IMG/VR virus record: IMGVR_UViG_3300020469_000264
Location: 1-23,899 of that record
DNA length: 23,899 bases
Strand: one strand, 5' to 3'
DNA from: a virus
Shown: piece after piece, positions 696-23,624 of the stretch
Layout of the letters: each line of letters opens with the position of its first letter
Numbering within the stretch: the stretch's first letter is position 1
Program-made: the position numbers and the translations under genes
Notes under the pieces: model-generated
The model's input: the letters and a program-made list of their open reading frames with translations, nothing else
Told to the model about the DNA's origin: nothing
Databases searched by the model: none

Positions 696-1334
696 TTATT
701 TTTCTATTTTCTCTTTAATTATTGCTTTTCCTGCATCGCCAGTCCAATGAATAACTTTTGGTGGAGTTGTCCATTTTCTTTTAGTCTCAACGTCTCGACG
801 GAGCCAATTATACTCATCTGGTATTTGACTAATGTAATTATCATTGTCTTTTACTATATCCCAAAGAACTTCTTGGTCACCACGATTAGTTTGACCTATG
901 CACCTATGGGCCCATACTTCTAATAGCTTAGAATTATTTTCTACGGCAAATACACCGGTTTGCCATCTGCATCCCCAAGAATGGTATGGGTCATTAGCGC
1001 AAGCAATCTTATCGGGTTGCGTGTATTCAAATATATCTGAAATGTTTTCCATTATTTCACAATCTAAATCAATCCAACACTTCTTCACATAGTCAGCTTT
1101 AGCCAGCGCGAGTGGTTTGTAGAACCAAGTTGTAGCTTCTAGCTTAGGGAATCGAATAAATCTGTTACATCGTTTAGATGCCCACTCAGCCCAGTCTTTA
1201 GTCATACCAAAATCACAAATAACAATATCTTCTACCGAGTGATATGCTTGTATGTTCTCTAACCACCAAGGTAACATCCATTGCTGATTAGAATCTACAC
1301 CTGTAACAAAACAATGGTTATCGGAGGTACTCAT
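696..1334 (-). CDS. GT-A fold glycosyltransferase (GT8/GT32-like)
   Basis: Putative glycosyltransferase of 212 aa. The metal-binding DxD is seen as WIDLDCEIMENISDIFEY near the middle, and a C-terminal PPKVIHWTGDAGK resembles the His-containing nucleotide-sugar loop of GT8-like enzymes. The start at 1334 is chosen because GGAG lies 6 nt upstream; an upstream GTG at 1346 would destroy that spacing. The gene overlaps the end of the preceding glycosyltransferase gene by 17 nt, so the two are co-translated. Three glycosyltransferases and a methyltransferase in a row point to a glycan or base modification pathway. The acceptor (host surface glycan, virion protein or modified DNA) cannot be told from sequence. 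Confidence 0.72.
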   Translation of the reverse strand: MSTSDNHCFVTGVDSNQQWMLPWWLENIQAYHSVEDIVICDFGMTKDWAEWASKRCNRFIRFPKLEATTWFYKPLALAKADYVKKCWIDLDCEIMENISDIFEYTQPDKIACANDPYHSWGCRWQTGVFAVENNSKLLEVWAHRCIGQTNRGDQEVLWDIVKDNDNYISQIPDEYNWLRRDVETKRKWTTPPKVIHWTGDAGKAIIKEKIEK

Positions 1335-2145
1335 AAAATTCTCCACTTTCTATTTCGTTAATAGTAAATTGACAATTAGCCACCTTAGCGCTCCATGTCA
1401 TTACATCTTCTTTTGTTGGCATCTTCAGATTGTCTACGTTTTCATAAGAAGTGGCCGAGATAGATGAACATACATTTGATTTATCAACTATAGCTGGTAC
1501 TCCATTAACAAGTGCATCAATCGCGGTCAAACTCATATTAGTTACCAGGGCAGATGAGGTTTTTAAATCTTCACTGATTGGTTTATTCCACCACTTATTA
1601 TCTGGTCTAGGCTTATTTCTAAACTCTACTGAGCGAGACGTATGTGATTTTAATTTTTTTACTGCGTTGTATGTCCACTCAGATTGACTCATATTATTTT
1701 GAAAATTACATACAGAATCTGATGAGGGCGTTATTAGAATTGGCCCGTCGTTTTGAACTTCAGCTTGTTCGTATTCTAATATTTTTTTAGCATAAGGAAT
1801 GTTATCTAGTTTTAATAATTTTTTAAATCTAGTATCATCATCAGATACATCTGTTAAGTCATTATGCAAACCACCTTTACAGAATCTATAGTAAGTAGCT
1901 GTCTTTTCAAGAACTTTAGGCGTGGGATATCTGTGGATATATGTACTCAAATAGCCACAATCAACTATCCACCATTCTTCTCCTCTTTCTTTACATTTTT
2001 CAATCTCTGGTTGATTAGTAGAACCCAATCCCCAAAATAAATGTATCTTTTTTGAGCCAGCCCAACGGACATTAGCTTTTTCTACCCCTTTAAAGATTGC
2101 GTTTGAAAGACACGCCCCCCATGCTATTTTATGACAAACAAACAT
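1318..2145 (-). CDS. putative GT-B-like glycosyltransferase or capsule-synthesis-type protein
   Basis: 275-aa soluble protein. Its C-terminal third holds ALVTNMSLTAIDALVNGVP followed by AIVDKSN, which resembles the nucleotide-sugar-binding end of GT-B enzymes and KpsS-type capsule proteins (serine, then an alpha helix, then G-x-P). The N-terminal half has aromatic-rich segments (HLFWGLGS, EEWWIVDCGYL) but no motif I can name. Its ATG overlaps the TAA of the preceding glycosyltransferase as TAATG, so translation is coupled. The function is inferred from this weak C-terminal resemblance and the neighbours. Confidence 0.5.
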   Translation of the reverse strand: MFVCHKIAWGACLSNAIFKGVEKANVRWAGSKKIHLFWGLGSTNQPEIEKCKERGEEWWIVDCGYLSTYIHRYPTPKVLEKTATYYRFCKGGLHNDLTDVSDDDTRFKKLLKLDNIPYAKKILEYEQAEVQNDGPILITPSSDSVCNFQNNMSQSEWTYNAVKKLKSHTSRSVEFRNKPRPDNKWWNKPISEDLKTSSALVTNMSLTAIDALVNGVPAIVDKSNVCSSISATSYENVDNLKMPTKEDVMTWSAKVANCQFTINEIESGEFYEYLR

Positions 2146-2822
2146 TATTTACCTAACTTTAATTCATTACATTCAGCATGGTACTTGAACCAGTCTTCTG
2201 CGTAATCAATTTCTTCATAACCCTTAAAGTATGGTCCACCTTCAGTGTAATGAATATTCTTTACGTCTTCTTTACATTCATATTCATCAGCTAACCAATT
2301 CCATTCAAGTGGTAAACTACCAATTAAGTCTTCTGATTCTAACCATTTAAATTGGTGAAGTTCTAATCCACTTGCACTATTCACATAGTCTGGTGTTAGA
2401 GTTGAACACTTTTTACAATTCATTAGCATGAATGAAGACCAATTCTTTTTAGGGTAAACAGTTTGTACTTGACCTAAGAATTTAGTCTGACTCTTTGGAA
2501 TGTAATCGTGTTGACATACCTGGACAGCATACTTATCGTCACGCAATCTCCATAGCTCTGCGATGTCTGCTTTCATTAACATATCGCAATCCATAAACAA
2601 CGCCCAACCTTGGTAGTTCATTAGGTGTGGTATAATAAATCTACTGAAAGAGAACTCAGTAGAAGAAAGATTGTTTCTTTCTCGGACGAATGTATCTTTG
2701 ATATTATCAAGATATATCGGTGTAATTGCAATCGGCTGACTGCTATTTTTCAATATAGAATAAGATAGTGTATTGAATGCTACCTTTTCTTTTGAATCGT
2801 ATCCTACGAATATATTAATCAT
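2145..2822 (-). CDS. GT8-like glycosyltransferase (GT-A fold)
   Basis: 225-aa protein strongly resembling a family of short GT8-like glycosyltransferases found in marine phages and proteobacteria. It starts MINIFVGYDSKE, has SSTEFSFSRFIIPHL, then the metal-binding FMDCDMLMKADIAELW (DxD motif), QHDYIPK, KFLGQVQTVYPKKNWSS, LPLEWNWLADEY and a terminal HYTEGGPYF loop. All the family blocks are present in order, so it appears intact. It overlaps the upstream gene by 4 nt (ATGA) and the next gene by one base. The acceptor is unknown. Possible roles are modification of host lipopolysaccharide or glycan, or virion glycosylation. Confidence 0.82.
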   Translation of the reverse strand: MINIFVGYDSKEKVAFNTLSYSILKNSSQPIAITPIYLDNIKDTFVRERNNLSSTEFSFSRFIIPHLMNYQGWALFMDCDMLMKADIAELWRLRDDKYAVQVCQHDYIPKSQTKFLGQVQTVYPKKNWSSFMLMNCKKCSTLTPDYVNSASGLELHQFKWLESEDLIGSLPLEWNWLADEYECKEDVKNIHYTEGGPYFKGYEEIDYAEDWFKYHAECNELKLGK

Positions 2823-19413: not shown

Positions 19414-20574
19414 TTAAAATACCCAGCGATATCCGAAGAATACTTTATTTTTATATACGTCAGCATCTTTATTAAATAGATGCAACCCTTGGTAACCAAC
19501 TTCTGCATAATGAAATTGATTGTATTTCCAGGCAAGAGTTACACTCGAAACAAATACTTCTTCTTCGCGCTCTAATCCTAAGCCCTGATAACGATTACCA
19601 ATATCTTTATAATTAGTAATAAGGTGAGCACCCATTGCGCTTACTTCAAGTTTTGGTGTAATTGGATACTTAACGATAAGAGCAGTTTTAAGATTCTCTT
19701 TCATATTCCAATATGCTACAGATGAATCCATTACTTCGTACACAGTGTTTAACCCAATCACTGTACCTCTTTCGGTAAAATATGTTATGTTGGCGCCATA
19801 CGTTGGTGTTGAATATTCAGTTAGGTTTCCTGCTTGGTCTTTTACTAATGCATCAATACCACCATAATTTATTTTAATGATAGTCGACGGATTCATTACA
19901 TAAGAGAACTGTGCATAATACATATCAGTATCAATTGCACCACGGACTCCATTGTATTCTAAAAATGATTTCTTACCTACTAACTCTAATATGAAACGCT
20001 TACCAAGGATTTGTTCTGCTGTGAACGAATATGTATTTTTAGTAAAGTCACCATTAGTCAATTCCGTGCCACTTCCAACAGGCAAGTTGTCGGACCATCT
20101 TTTAACATAGTTTTCATACCCACCTTTAAGTTTTAAAAGATAACGAGGTTGCCATGCTAGCTCGTACGAACTCTTATTCATAAAGTACGTTACATCGATA
20201 TCGTCATCAATATCACTTGGCTCTCTTTCTGAATGAGAGAATGTGTTTGCAGAATCGAGTATGAGTTTTGGTGTTATCTCGTATTTGCTTTTGATGCCAA
20301 TGTTACCAAACACCAACGTTTTACTATCAACAGTCCTGTGTCTTATTTCTGGTTGCGCTTTTAGAGTTATTAAATCTCTAAAGAACTTGCCATCTATTCC
20401 TAGTGATTGACTGAAGTAAAAGGTTGATGTTTGGTCGGGCGTACCTGCTGCCCGCATGAAAACATTGTCATCAAAAAAGATTCGACTAAATGAAGTTAAC
20501 TTAAACTTTTTCTCTGCATAGCCAGATAACACCAGCGAGAGGCAGAATAATATAGATAATAATATAAATCTCAT
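19414..20574 (-). CDS. outer-membrane beta-barrel protein
   Basis: 386 aa with a signal peptide (MRFILLSILFCLSLVLSGYA, cleavage likely after A20) and then repeated amphipathic strands with aromatic girdles to the end. The protein finishes VFFGYRWVF, with the C-terminal Phe that BAM uses to recognise outer-membrane barrels. The N-terminal FFDDNVFM motif resembles the putative beta-barrel porin family (BBP2/PF10082-like) found with exopolysaccharide and PEP-CTERM systems. It lies 4 nt after a PEP-CTERM protein gene. A phage-encoded outer-membrane protein could block or replace a receptor or act in export. The barrel call is firm; the role is inference. Confidence 0.78.
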   Translation of the reverse strand: MRFILLSILFCLSLVLSGYAEKKFKLTSFSRIFFDDNVFMRAAGTPDQTSTFYFSQSLGIDGKFFRDLITLKAQPEIRHRTVDSKTLVFGNIGIKSKYEITPKLILDSANTFSHSEREPSDIDDDIDVTYFMNKSSYELAWQPRYLLKLKGGYENYVKRWSDNLPVGSGTELTNGDFTKNTYSFTAEQILGKRFILELVGKKSFLEYNGVRGAIDTDMYYAQFSYVMNPSTIIKINYGGIDALVKDQAGNLTEYSTPTYGANITYFTERGTVIGLNTVYEVMDSSVAYWNMKENLKTALIVKYPITPKLEVSAMGAHLITNYKDIGNRYQGLGLEREEEVFVSSVTLAWKYNQFHYAEVGYQGLHLFNKDADVYKNKVFFGYRWVF

Positions 20575-20578
20575 GCAT

Positions 20579-21139
20579 TTATTTCCGTTTTCTTAATAGT
20601 AATATTAGCGCTGCTCCGCCCATAAGTAATCCTACTGCAGCGGGTTCTGGTATTATAACCATATTTATACTTGCTCCTGTAGGACCAGATATATCAACTG
20701 TACCCGATATAGATTCTTCCAACTCATAAGAAGTAATAGCAGCCCAATACGTTGTTCCTGCTATTAGGTCTTGAGTTAATTCAAATTGATATGTGTTACC
20801 CCCATCGTAACCATCATCGTCTTCTGCTATTAGATTTTTCTTTACATCAGTTAAATCAAATGCATTTTCATAAAGATAGATAAACGTATCAGCTTCAGAA
20901 AAAAGTGTTTCGCCGGTATAGTCAAATGAATCATGTGATAAGATAGATGTATTAGTTGCAGTCCAACTACCTGATGTATCTACTGTAAAATACGCAAGGT
21001 TATAATAGAATATACCACTATCTTCGCCAGGTGGAGTCCAAGACAAAGAGGTTTCATCAAAATCAAATTCAAAAGTAGTAATTAAATCTGCATAAAGAGT
21101 TGATGCAACTAATAATAAACCTATAAGTAATTTACGCAT
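20579..21139 (-). CDS. secreted PEP-CTERM protein A (186 aa)
   Basis: Signal peptide MRKLLIGLLLVASTLYA, a beta-rich extracellular domain with DTFIYLYENAFDLTDVKKN and AGTTYWAAITSYELEE, and a C-terminal sorting signal with all three parts: PEP (IIPEPAAVG), a hydrophobic helix (LLMGGAALILLL) and RKRK. PEP-CTERM tails are cleaved by exosortases (EpsH/XrtA) in Gram-negative bacteria that make exopolysaccharide. The gene overlaps the neighbouring PEP-CTERM gene by 8 nt, with GGAG 5 nt before the ATG. It is paralogous to that neighbour. It would only mature in a host with an exosortase. Confidence 0.85.
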   Translation of the reverse strand: MRKLLIGLLLVASTLYADLITTFEFDFDETSLSWTPPGEDSGIFYYNLAYFTVDTSGSWTATNTSILSHDSFDYTGETLFSEADTFIYLYENAFDLTDVKKNLIAEDDDGYDGGNTYQFELTQDLIAGTTYWAAITSYELEESISGTVDISGPTGASINMVIIPEPAAVGLLMGGAALILLLRKRK

Positions 21140-21767
21140 GCCTTCTCCGAATTGCTACATATAAGAATGAACCAAACGCTAGCATTAACGTATAAGTTGA
21201 TGGTTCAGGTACTGTAGTAAAATATAGTTCACTGGGTCCATTTATTTCAATGTCCATTGAACCAAGAGCATCAGCAGCAAAAGAAGTAAATACTACTAAA
21301 TATTGTTTTTCTTCTAAATCAAATATACCATTAAATGCGCCTGCACCTATGCCGGTTCCTTGACCTTCTCCGCTACTTTGGCCTCCGCCCCAACCATAAC
21401 CTATACCAGAGTTAAAAATCTCTGGTGCAGTAGTTATGACATTAGTTAAATCAAAATCGTCAGTATCATATAACAATACTTGTGTATCGGTCGTTGAACC
21501 ATCTGATCCTTGTAATGAACTTGAGTAATTAGAAAAAGTAAAATTACTACCTGCGCTATCGGGTGTCATATATATCCACTCGTAATATGTGCGTTGAGTA
21601 GCTGGGCCACCAAAACCTTCAACATATTGGTCATCTTCTAAGACGACGTCTATGTCATAGTAAGAATAATTTTCGGTTTGACCAGTAAGTGGTCCTAGTA
21701 TGCTTATTGATGCATACGTTGATAATGTTGATAATAAAAAGACTATTCCCAGTAACCCCTTTTTCAT
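21132..21767 (-). CDS. secreted PEP-CTERM protein B (211 aa)
   Basis: Signal peptide MKKGLLGIVFLLSTLSTYA, then a beta-rich domain with a Gly-rich stretch (GIGYGWGGGQSSGEGQGTG), and a C-terminal tail with VPEPSTYT, a hydrophobic helix (LMLAFGSFLYVAI) and RRRHA. This is a textbook PEP-CTERM signal. The domain shares DT-x2-LY...FDLT-x-V and TS-x(7)-G-x-DI-x-I-x-GP with the next gene, so the two arose by duplication. It starts one base after the stop of the 58-aa membrane gene. The expected destination is the host's outer surface or extracellular matrix. Confidence 0.86.
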   Translation of the reverse strand: MKKGLLGIVFLLSTLSTYASISILGPLTGQTENYSYYDIDVVLEDDQYVEGFGGPATQRTYYEWIYMTPDSAGSNFTFSNYSSSLQGSDGSTTDTQVLLYDTDDFDLTNVITTAPEIFNSGIGYGWGGGQSSGEGQGTGIGAGAFNGIFDLEEKQYLVVFTSFAADALGSMDIEINGPSELYFTTVPEPSTYTLMLAFGSFLYVAIRRRHA

Positions 21768-21768
21768 T

Positions 21769-21945
21769 TTATTTTTTTCCGATTAGTTTACCCATGAGTC
21801 CAAAGATTTGGCCAAAGATTCCTAATCCTTTACCGAGCCAAGAGTCTTTAGGTATGAGTAATGTTAACATTGATAAGATACCAATCGTTGCGATTGCTAT
21901 CTCAATTAAATTTCCTTTGCATTGTTGAATTATATATTGTATCAT
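21769..21945 (-). CDS. 58-aa membrane peptide with amphipathic glycine-rich tail
   Basis: It begins MIQYIIQQCKGNLIEIAIAT, has a hydrophobic helix (IAIATIGILSMLTLLIP) and ends with a Gly/Phe/Lys amphipathic segment (GKGLGIFGQIFGLMGKLIG, then KK). AAGGA stands 6 nt before the ATG. The gene begins 10 nt after the acidic protein's stop and ends one base before PEP-CTERM protein B. The design resembles small membrane-active peptides such as holin-like or modulin-like ones, but no family match is evident. Confidence 0.6.
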   Translation of the reverse strand: MIQYIIQQCKGNLIEIAIATIGILSMLTLLIPKDSWLGKGLGIFGQIFGLMGKLIGKK

Positions 21946-21954
21946 AATTGTTCC

Positions 21955-23574
21955 TTAAATTGGTGTTGCGTCTGTATCTCCCATGTCATAACCTGGTGCG
22001 CTTGGGCCAAATATATCAGCGAAGTTTATATCACTTGCAGGGCCAGCGGGTGAAACTATAACTGTGCCGGGTGTACCTTCGATTGGGGTAAGTACCATTT
22101 CGATAACTTCTTCTTTAACCGTTTCTTCAATTACATCGTCTATTTGAACTACCTCTTCTACATTTACGGCTACTTCGATGTCATCGATTACTACATCAGC
22201 ATTTACTAAAATATCGGCAATATCTATTTCCGCCACTTCTACTTCAACTTCAGGTGTTACTTCTATTTCTGTTTCTGCTACCATTGTATGAGGTTTAATA
22301 TCGTCTATTTCGTCAATCGATATATCATCTACTTCTATTTCTACTTCATCATCAGTAGAAATGGGTGGGGCCTCCGATTCTGATTCGACTTCTGCAATCT
22401 CAATTGCAGGTTCCTCATCAGCAGATATTTCACTTTCTTCAACCACCTCCTCTTCGCTATTGTTAATACCAAATAATGCAAGAAGGCCACCACCACTAGA
22501 TTTCTTTACGCCGCCATTCGAGTTTTCATTTGAATCGTCCGCTGTCGTTTCAGCCACTTCTTCAGTCTCTGGCTCGTCAACTGCCGTTTCATCTTCTTGC
22601 TCTTCTGGTATTTGGTCATCTTGTGCTGGTTCTCCTTGTTCTTCAGAATCAGGTTCTTCATTATCGTCATCTCCGCCTGTGAGAAAACTAAAGAAACCTT
22701 TCTTCTTTTTGGGTTGTTCTTCAACCTGCTCCTCGGCTTCGGGCTCAGGTTCGTTAGATTCTTCTTCAGCTTCTGGCTCATCAGCTTCTTCAGCTTCTGG
22801 CTCTGATTCTGGCTCGGGCTCTGATTCTTCTTCGGCCTCTTCAGCCTCTTCTTCATCATCGCCTCCTAAAAGTTTTGAGAAGAAACCTTTTTTCTTTTTC
22901 TTGGGTTCTTCTTTTTCTTCCTCTACGGTTTCTTCATTCGAATTTTCGTCCTTTGTATCAGACTTATCAGAGGCTTCAGAGGGTTCTTCAGAAACTTCTT
23001 CCGTTTGAGTTTCTTCTCCGTTTGATTCTGTTCCCTTAGGTAATGTTGAAGGTTCATTTGGTTCCTTTGGTTCTGATTGAGCGGGAGGAGTAGGTGGGTC
23101 TAAATCAATCTCAATATCACCCATACCAATAATTGTGGTGAACCCCGCGAGAGGATCGTCCCAATTAATGTTTGGATGTTCGAATTTAACTTCTTCCCAT
23201 TTTTCTTCAGCAACTTGCTGAACTACTCGAGTTTCTTCAACTACGGTGTCGACTTGGAAATATGCTGCGGAGCCTAGTGCTATTACACCGGCCGGTCCTA
23301 ATGCTGCAAGTTGTGTACCTATCTGTTCTAGTGTACCGGGCGGTTTTGCTAATTCTTCGGCTATGTTTGAGCCACCACTACCACCATCATCTTCGTCTTC
23401 TTCAAATTCAAATCCAGGTTTTACCTCTCCGAGCAAGGTCGCGGACGCTTTCTTCAGTAATTCAAACTCTTCATTCTGCCTATCAGGCTTTGAGAGTTTC
23501 TGAACGATATTTGCTGCGTCTTCTACGGATAGTTCTTCCGCATCAGCCTTTGACTTTCCCTTATCTTTGGCCAT
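21955..23574 (-). CDS. 539-aa acidic low-complexity protein with repeated amphipathic motifs
   Basis: N-terminal residues 1-60 are helical and charged. A hydrophobic segment at about 85-107 (LAALGPAGVIALGSAAYF) may span or dock to a membrane. From 160 on it is dominated by Glu/Pro/Asp/Ser. Three spaced basic-hydrophobic units punctuate the acid: KKKKKGFFSKLLGGDD (about 225-240), KKKKGFFSFLTGGDDD (289-304) and a weaker KKSSGGGLLALFG (357-369). A Val/Ile/Glu/Asp-rich region follows and the end is IFGPSAPGYDMGDTDATPI. AAGGGA stands 4 nt before the ATG. Long disordered acid with membrane-binding-like motifs suggests a scaffold or tether. The family is unknown. Confidence 0.72.
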   Translation of the reverse strand: MAKDKGKSKADAEELSVEDAANIVQKLSKPDRQNEEFELLKKASATLLGEVKPGFEFEEDEDDGGSGGSNIAEELAKPPGTLEQIGTQLAALGPAGVIALGSAAYFQVDTVVEETRVVQQVAEEKWEEVKFEHPNINWDDPLAGFTTIIGMGDIEIDLDPPTPPAQSEPKEPNEPSTLPKGTESNGEETQTEEVSEEPSEASDKSDTKDENSNEETVEEEKEEPKKKKKGFFSKLLGGDDEEEAEEAEEESEPEPESEPEAEEADEPEAEEESNEPEPEAEEQVEEQPKKKKGFFSFLTGGDDDNEEPDSEEQGEPAQDDQIPEEQEDETAVDEPETEEVAETTADDSNENSNGGVKKSSGGGLLALFGINNSEEEVVEESEISADEEPAIEIAEVESESEAPPISTDDEVEIEVDDISIDEIDDIKPHTMVAETEIEVTPEVEVEVAEIDIADILVNADVVIDDIEVAVNVEEVVQIDDVIEETVKEEVIEMVLTPIEGTPGTVIVSPAGPASDINFADIFGPSAPGYDMGDTDATPI

Positions 23575-23624
23575 AGTTTCCCTTTAATTCTATTTAGGAA
23601 AACGGAGGCCTTGAAAGCCCGACT

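Follow-up and report, generated by a model that had tools for sequence, protein, structure and literature searches.

A mobile operon built on PEP-CTERM proteins is common to several unrelated lineages of tailed phages

Exosortase sorting is widespread, and to our knowledge the function of most exosortase substrates is poorly understood. Lc of the lambdoid phage PA-2 is a phage-borne porin, and a phage-encoded outer-membrane barrel can change the receptors of a cell. SasX of Staphylococcus is a prophage-encoded LPXTG surface protein that carries a C-terminal signal for a host sorting enzyme. The bacterial substrates of the PEP-CTERM/exosortase (EpsH) system (TIGR02595) combine a signal peptide, a diverse ectodomain, a PEP motif, a hydrophobic helix and a basic end (Haft et al., 2006, PMC1569441), and they are tied to exopolysaccharide, flocs and biofilms (PMC1569441; cited in PMC12642866). 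Llp of phage T5, a small exported phage protein able to block adsorption, is encoded next to the receptor-binding protein gene; like Cor of T1-like phages, it is an exported phage protein at the outer membrane whose gene is often found near a receptor-binding gene (PMC9586334).

The locus described here lies in a 23,899-base virus record (hereafter the window, meaning the whole stretch of DNA analyzed) and resembles each of these systems in part. Its PEP-CTERM proteins share the layout of the bacterial substrates, but they are phage-encoded, occupy a fixed place beside two further genes (named small and acid below), come from phages in whose searched contigs no exosortase was found, and exchange ectodomain alleles between phages. 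With Llp and Cor the locus would share a proposed logic, from which it departs in lacking a lipobox, in using a different sorting signal and in forming a multi-gene unit with a barrel; exclusion would apply here by analogy. Unlike Lc, to which it may be likened on general grounds, the phage barrel is an optional partner of a PEP-CTERM protein. The parallel with SasX is likewise an analogy, spanning a different enzyme, envelope type and lifestyle, and the present locus is a multi-gene unit common to unrelated phages.

The initial annotation had described four genes, encoding a small membrane peptide, two PEP-CTERM proteins and a barrel ending in Phe; all four were located on the minus strand of the window and are borne out by ORFs, profiles and a structural model. 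The span assigned to them, 19414-21945, delimits these genes correctly and was too narrow, because an acidic gene at 21955-23574 is part of the unit. This first gene, acid (21955..23574, minus strand), is an ORF of 539 aa with a net charge of -132, whose relatives, by alignment, adjoin small at the same position; the protein has a conserved, weakly hydrophobic segment, GPAGVIALGSAAYFQ, and two KKKKGFF-type motifs, and profile searches assign it to no Pfam or PHROG family. It is followed by small (21769..21945, minus strand), an ORF of 58 aa with 35 non-redundant relatives, whose product has a single hydrophobic helix at residues 13-31, with a C-terminal part that is basic and amphipathic. Then come pep1 (21132..21767, minus strand; 211 aa), a secreted PEP-CTERM protein with an ectodomain predicted to be beta-rich, and pep2 (20579..21139, minus strand; 186 aa), a second secreted PEP-CTERM protein and diverged paralogue of the first. 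The optional last gene, barrel (19414..20574, minus strand; 386 aa), encodes a predicted 18-strand outer-membrane beta-barrel with a signal peptide and a C-terminal Phe. None of the five proteins has a convincing PHROG family match. The neighboring genes in the window specify a family B DNA polymerase (Pfam), a clamp loader, a CobS-like ATPase and a phrog_459 peptidase, a setting that resembles T4-like cyanophages. An ORF at the window end was considered as a single-strand-binding protein and this was dropped, its PHROG match being phrog_624, a 'DNA binding protein'. Elsewhere in the window (696-2822), three consecutive ORFs resemble, by eye, glycosyltransferases or related sugar enzymes, which could also alter surfaces.

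The sorting tails are recognizable by two profiles, TIGR02595 (cut-off 16 bits) and PF07589 (cut-off 20.7 bits). A miss by TIGR02595 had been named beforehand as refuting the proposed envelope cassette; when the search was run, the pep1 tail (VPEPSTYTLMLAFGSFLYVAIRRRHA region, 21141..21212, minus strand) scored 18.2 bits and the pep2 tail (IPEPAAVGLLMGGAALILLLRKRK region, 20582..20653, minus strand) 25.3 bits, both above the cut-off, and the same profile matched nothing in any of 14 control genomes. With PF07589, pep1 lies above the cut-off at 23.5 bits and pep2 below it at 15.0 bits. Among related records, 15 of 21 exceed the TIGR02595 cut-off. At the other end of both proteins, a hydrophobicity profile, rather than a dedicated predictor, places the peaks of N-terminal signal peptides within residues 4-24, and neither sequence has a lipobox cysteine after the signal peptide. 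The pep1 model shows a beta-rich domain flanked by an N-terminal and a C-terminal helix, and comparison with solved structures gave no match for it at E 0.001. Other tails of this kind were seen outside the unit: a different 114-aa PEP-CTERM gene with a VPEPSTYALFAG tail, unrelated to the acid-small unit (L134:5270-5614; also L135, L144 and L160), in a locus that also holds a gene that by eye is tyrosinase-like (L134, 1542-3041), and, on a viral record of 78 kb, a secreted protein of 71 aa that is rich in RG/D and carries a PEP-CTERM-like tail (L133:1119-1334).

As modeled by AlphaFold (mean pLDDT 79), the barrel protein has 18 strands after an N-terminal signal-peptide-like helix, and by its signal peptide, closed even-numbered barrel and C-terminal aromatic residue the predicted structure is an outer-membrane beta-barrel. 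Barrel folds fill the list of PDB matches, the nearest being OprD/Occ, AlgE and TonB-dependent receptors; the likeness to AlgE and OprD-type barrels lies in strand number and overall fold (query TM-score 0.58 for AlgE, the best among the matches listed), whereas identity to the phage barrel is about 10%. The Pfam family BBP2_2 (PF10082) reaches 13.3 bits against it, below the gathering cut-off of 23.7. Its relatives comprised 22 viral contigs at 76-100% identity and two at 28%, to which later scans added more. A barrel profile found nothing in 397 other Pseudomonadota genomes, so no bacterial source of the barrel was found there; in ten further PEPSTYA contigs it also gave no match, in a search run without a positive control.

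Wherever contigs span the region, the gene order is acid, small, one or two PEP-CTERM genes and then usually the barrel, which is missing in several carriers. The conserved unit is therefore acid-small-PEP-CTERM, with the barrel as a usual but optional addition. A PEP-tailed gene directly follows small in all 27 non-redundant loci with room downstream; in the other 8 of the 35 non-redundant small genes over all fetched loci, the contig ends before the next gene. Since the arrangement recurs in dozens of contigs, it is not due to chance, and because many of the gene junctions overlap by a few bases, translational coupling within the unit is suggested. Neither barrel nor pep1 has a match among 50,697 phage genomes, and no phage-encoded PEP-CTERM protein was reported in the open-licence papers searched. 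What is new here is a phage operon built on a PEP-CTERM protein, for which we propose a role only tentatively; phage surface proteins and host sorting signals were each already known.

The operon is mobile and common to several unrelated tailed-phage lineages: T4-like phages carry it, and so do a phage of 141 kb that is not T4-like, one of 38 kb and another whose tail region is of the lambda type. The 141-kb contig, which carries L005, has a DNA polymerase matching phrog_405 and a terminase matching phrog_2, and its barrel, pep1 and pep2 are 83%, 79% and 80% identical to those of the window phage; because the two phages have no core genes in common, and a single 80-aa ORF is all that the 141-kb contig shares of the window's remaining proteins, the cassette moves as a block. 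The converse is seen in L032 and L033, which share CobS with the window phage at 70-78% identity (and in L033 a clamp loader at 81%), yet have barrels only 28% identical to its own. Three lineages without the barrel have the unit close to tail or structural genes, a placement that recalls T5 llp beside its receptor-binding protein gene (PMC9586334): it adjoins a lambda-type minor tail protein in L180, lies upstream of tail and packaging genes in L195 and L202 (with PEP fragments in L165 and L166), and occurs on the 38-kb contig in L159/L164, where a holin identity for the 135-aa neighbor in L164 was considered and not supported. The proposal of a phage-borne envelope cassette of PEP-CTERM proteins and barrel is supported, while its framing as part of a T4-like genome gives way to a mobile unit common to unrelated phages in which the barrel is optional. 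Beside the L005 cassette (L005:12603-15033, and the start of the same 141-kb contig, L070:1-3023) are several paralogous fibre-like genes with an N-terminus like MADKKISELTELT and repeat-rich bodies, and L010 and L017 show many internal repeats at the fibre-like gene region.

The timing of expression can be approached through TATAAATA, which we take to be the core of T4 late promoters. The window holds nine copies, against 2.9 expected, all on the coding strand. Eight T4-like relatives (L007, L008, L024, L172, L175, L177, L032 and L033) carry the full motif upstream of acid, at a similar distance, and the window itself has only a partial version there, CCTAAATA (23591..23598, minus strand), which lies just 5' of acid and keeps 6 of the 8 bases of this T4-type late -10 motif. 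Upstream of acid in the non-T4 carriers it is absent, and a copy directly upstream of every cassette gene was looked for and not found, the motif occurring only near acid and in part of the T4-like carriers. The unit may thus be expressed late, a suggestion limited to T4-like carriers.

The strongest functional clue is the swapping of the ectodomain, which is cleanly exchanged within DNA of otherwise about 90% identity. In L229/L231 the flanks on either side are 93% identical, and between them the secreted part has been replaced and the tail kept; in L012/L019 the barrel is 96% and the ectodomain 25% identical, with a break that extends from the signal-peptide region as far as a point shortly before the tail; and in L019/L020 the tail is 96% and the ectodomain 27% identical. 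The reverse case is found in L010/L021, with a dS of 0.11 in the ectodomain and 1.11 in the barrel. Values of dN/dS are mostly 0.05-0.3 and once 0.56, and the PEP gene and the barrel are under purifying selection; the genes are therefore maintained, with diversity arising by allele replacement, and positive selection on the ectodomain was not seen. Replacement of the ectodomain with retention of the tail suggests display on the surface of the infected cell via a host sorting enzyme, and the swapping itself suggests that the PEP ectodomain has a recognition role, although it also fits recognition roles other than blocking.

Such display would need a host enzyme, because no exosortase (PF09721) was found in any of four phage contigs, which include the 141-kb one and may be incomplete; a metagenome-assembled genome (MAG) in the same search was positive. 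Among bacterial genomes the barrel matches a single contig, which is 12 kb long, has 99% identity to the window and is binned in a Porticoccaceae MAG, and in this bin another contig (C82; L068, L116) bears an exosortase, PrsK, PrsR and a polysaccharide export protein. This exosortase scores 271 bits to XrtC, as compared to at most 99 bits elsewhere in 398 Pseudomonadota; because it is XrtC-like and set apart from the 397 other Pseudomonadota genomes, its contig may have been binned wrongly or acquired. Typically, XrtC belongs to Verrucomicrobiota. Use of a host exosortase, as originally envisaged, is supported only indirectly, by the lack of a phage enzyme in the four contigs and by the co-binned locus, but that locus looks foreign to its bin, and Porticoccaceae was accordingly not adopted as the host from the name of the MAG. 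No homology was found between the phage barrel and the barrel of the co-binned exosortase locus. A tetranucleotide comparison resolved no host, and tail style names none either, the exosortase-positive relatives of the MAG having mostly PEPASLALLGLGLAG-type tails, unlike those of the phages.

The reading that we favor, tentatively, is that this mobile operon lets the phage display a variable protein on the envelope of its host, where the protein would most likely block or mask receptors or a surface polymer. The PEP protein would be exported through its own signal peptide, and a host exosortase would recognize and cut its PEP-CTERM tail, so that the protein is either released or anchored in exopolysaccharide or the outer envelope. 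The inner membrane would be the site of action of acid and small, and the outer membrane would hold the barrel, where present. The surface of the infected cell may be remodeled in this way, the exposed domain masking or blocking receptors or surface polymer such that neither competitors nor progeny of the phage itself that encounter debris would adsorb unproductively, following the logic of T5 Llp/Cor. A hijacked host exosortase displaying a serotype-like, swappable protein that decides which competing phages adsorb is possible, though rather doubtful. Several observations count against display: the promoter hint here points to late expression, unlike the early synthesis of T5 Llp and many exclusion proteins; the only co-binned exosortase resembles XrtC, the type named for VPDSG tails, and lies on a contig that may be mis-binned; and one PEP-CTERM protein of 95 aa, on the 38-kb phage contig (L164:13191-13478), has no signal peptide and yet lies in the acid-small-PEP order.

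A rival reading is an egress cassette, in which small is membrane-active (holin-like or a holin helper), acid and the PEP protein are periplasmic and the barrel perturbs the outer membrane, so that, as infection ends, the cell is opened and the phages can leave the exopolysaccharide. Every product does look envelope-directed, the T4-type late motif precedes acid in the eight relatives, small combines a hydrophobic helix with a basic amphipathic tail, and the unit lies among late or structural genes in several lineages. We nevertheless consider this unlikely, as no lysis family in Pfam or PHROG matches any of the five proteins, allele replacement of an exposed domain is unexpected for a lysis factor, and several carriers lack the barrel. 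Less likely again is that the PEP protein is incorporated into the exopolysaccharide around infected cells and alters aggregation or dispersal, helping the next round of infection. In favor of this are similarities to floc_PepA and further PEP-CTERM families, which are weak and fall below threshold, and the known link of PEP-CTERM proteins to exopolysaccharide and floc formation (PMC1569441; cited in PMC12642866), but a matrix role itself explains neither ectodomain swapping nor the barrel.

On a par with that reading in its low probability is plain anchoring, whereby the tails only hold the proteins in the inner membrane, no exosortase takes part, and they look like sorting tails either by coincidence or as a leftover of capture from a host. 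The foreign look of the contig bearing the only co-binned exosortase favors it, as does the finding that tail dN is not below ectodomain dN; so do the degenerate tails of some carriers (PES in L007/L008, PEL in L222), which also count against display. Yet PEP, the hydrophobic helix and the basic residues are kept in most tails across diverged proteins, and the tail is retained when the ectodomain is replaced. The least probable alternative, and a very unlikely one, is that the products become part of the phage particle: tail or structural genes neighbor the unit in the three barrel-less lineages, but signal peptides and an outer-membrane barrel would take the products away from the cytoplasm, which is the site of assembly of these phages, and in T4-like carriers it is replication genes that adjoin the unit.

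That an operon under purifying selection has moved between unrelated phages indicates that displaying the protein, as we propose, would pay during infection. If the display reading is true, phages that differ only in the ectodomain should differ in what is excluded or bound. The phage operon would also point to phage-host pairs suited to measuring exosortase function.
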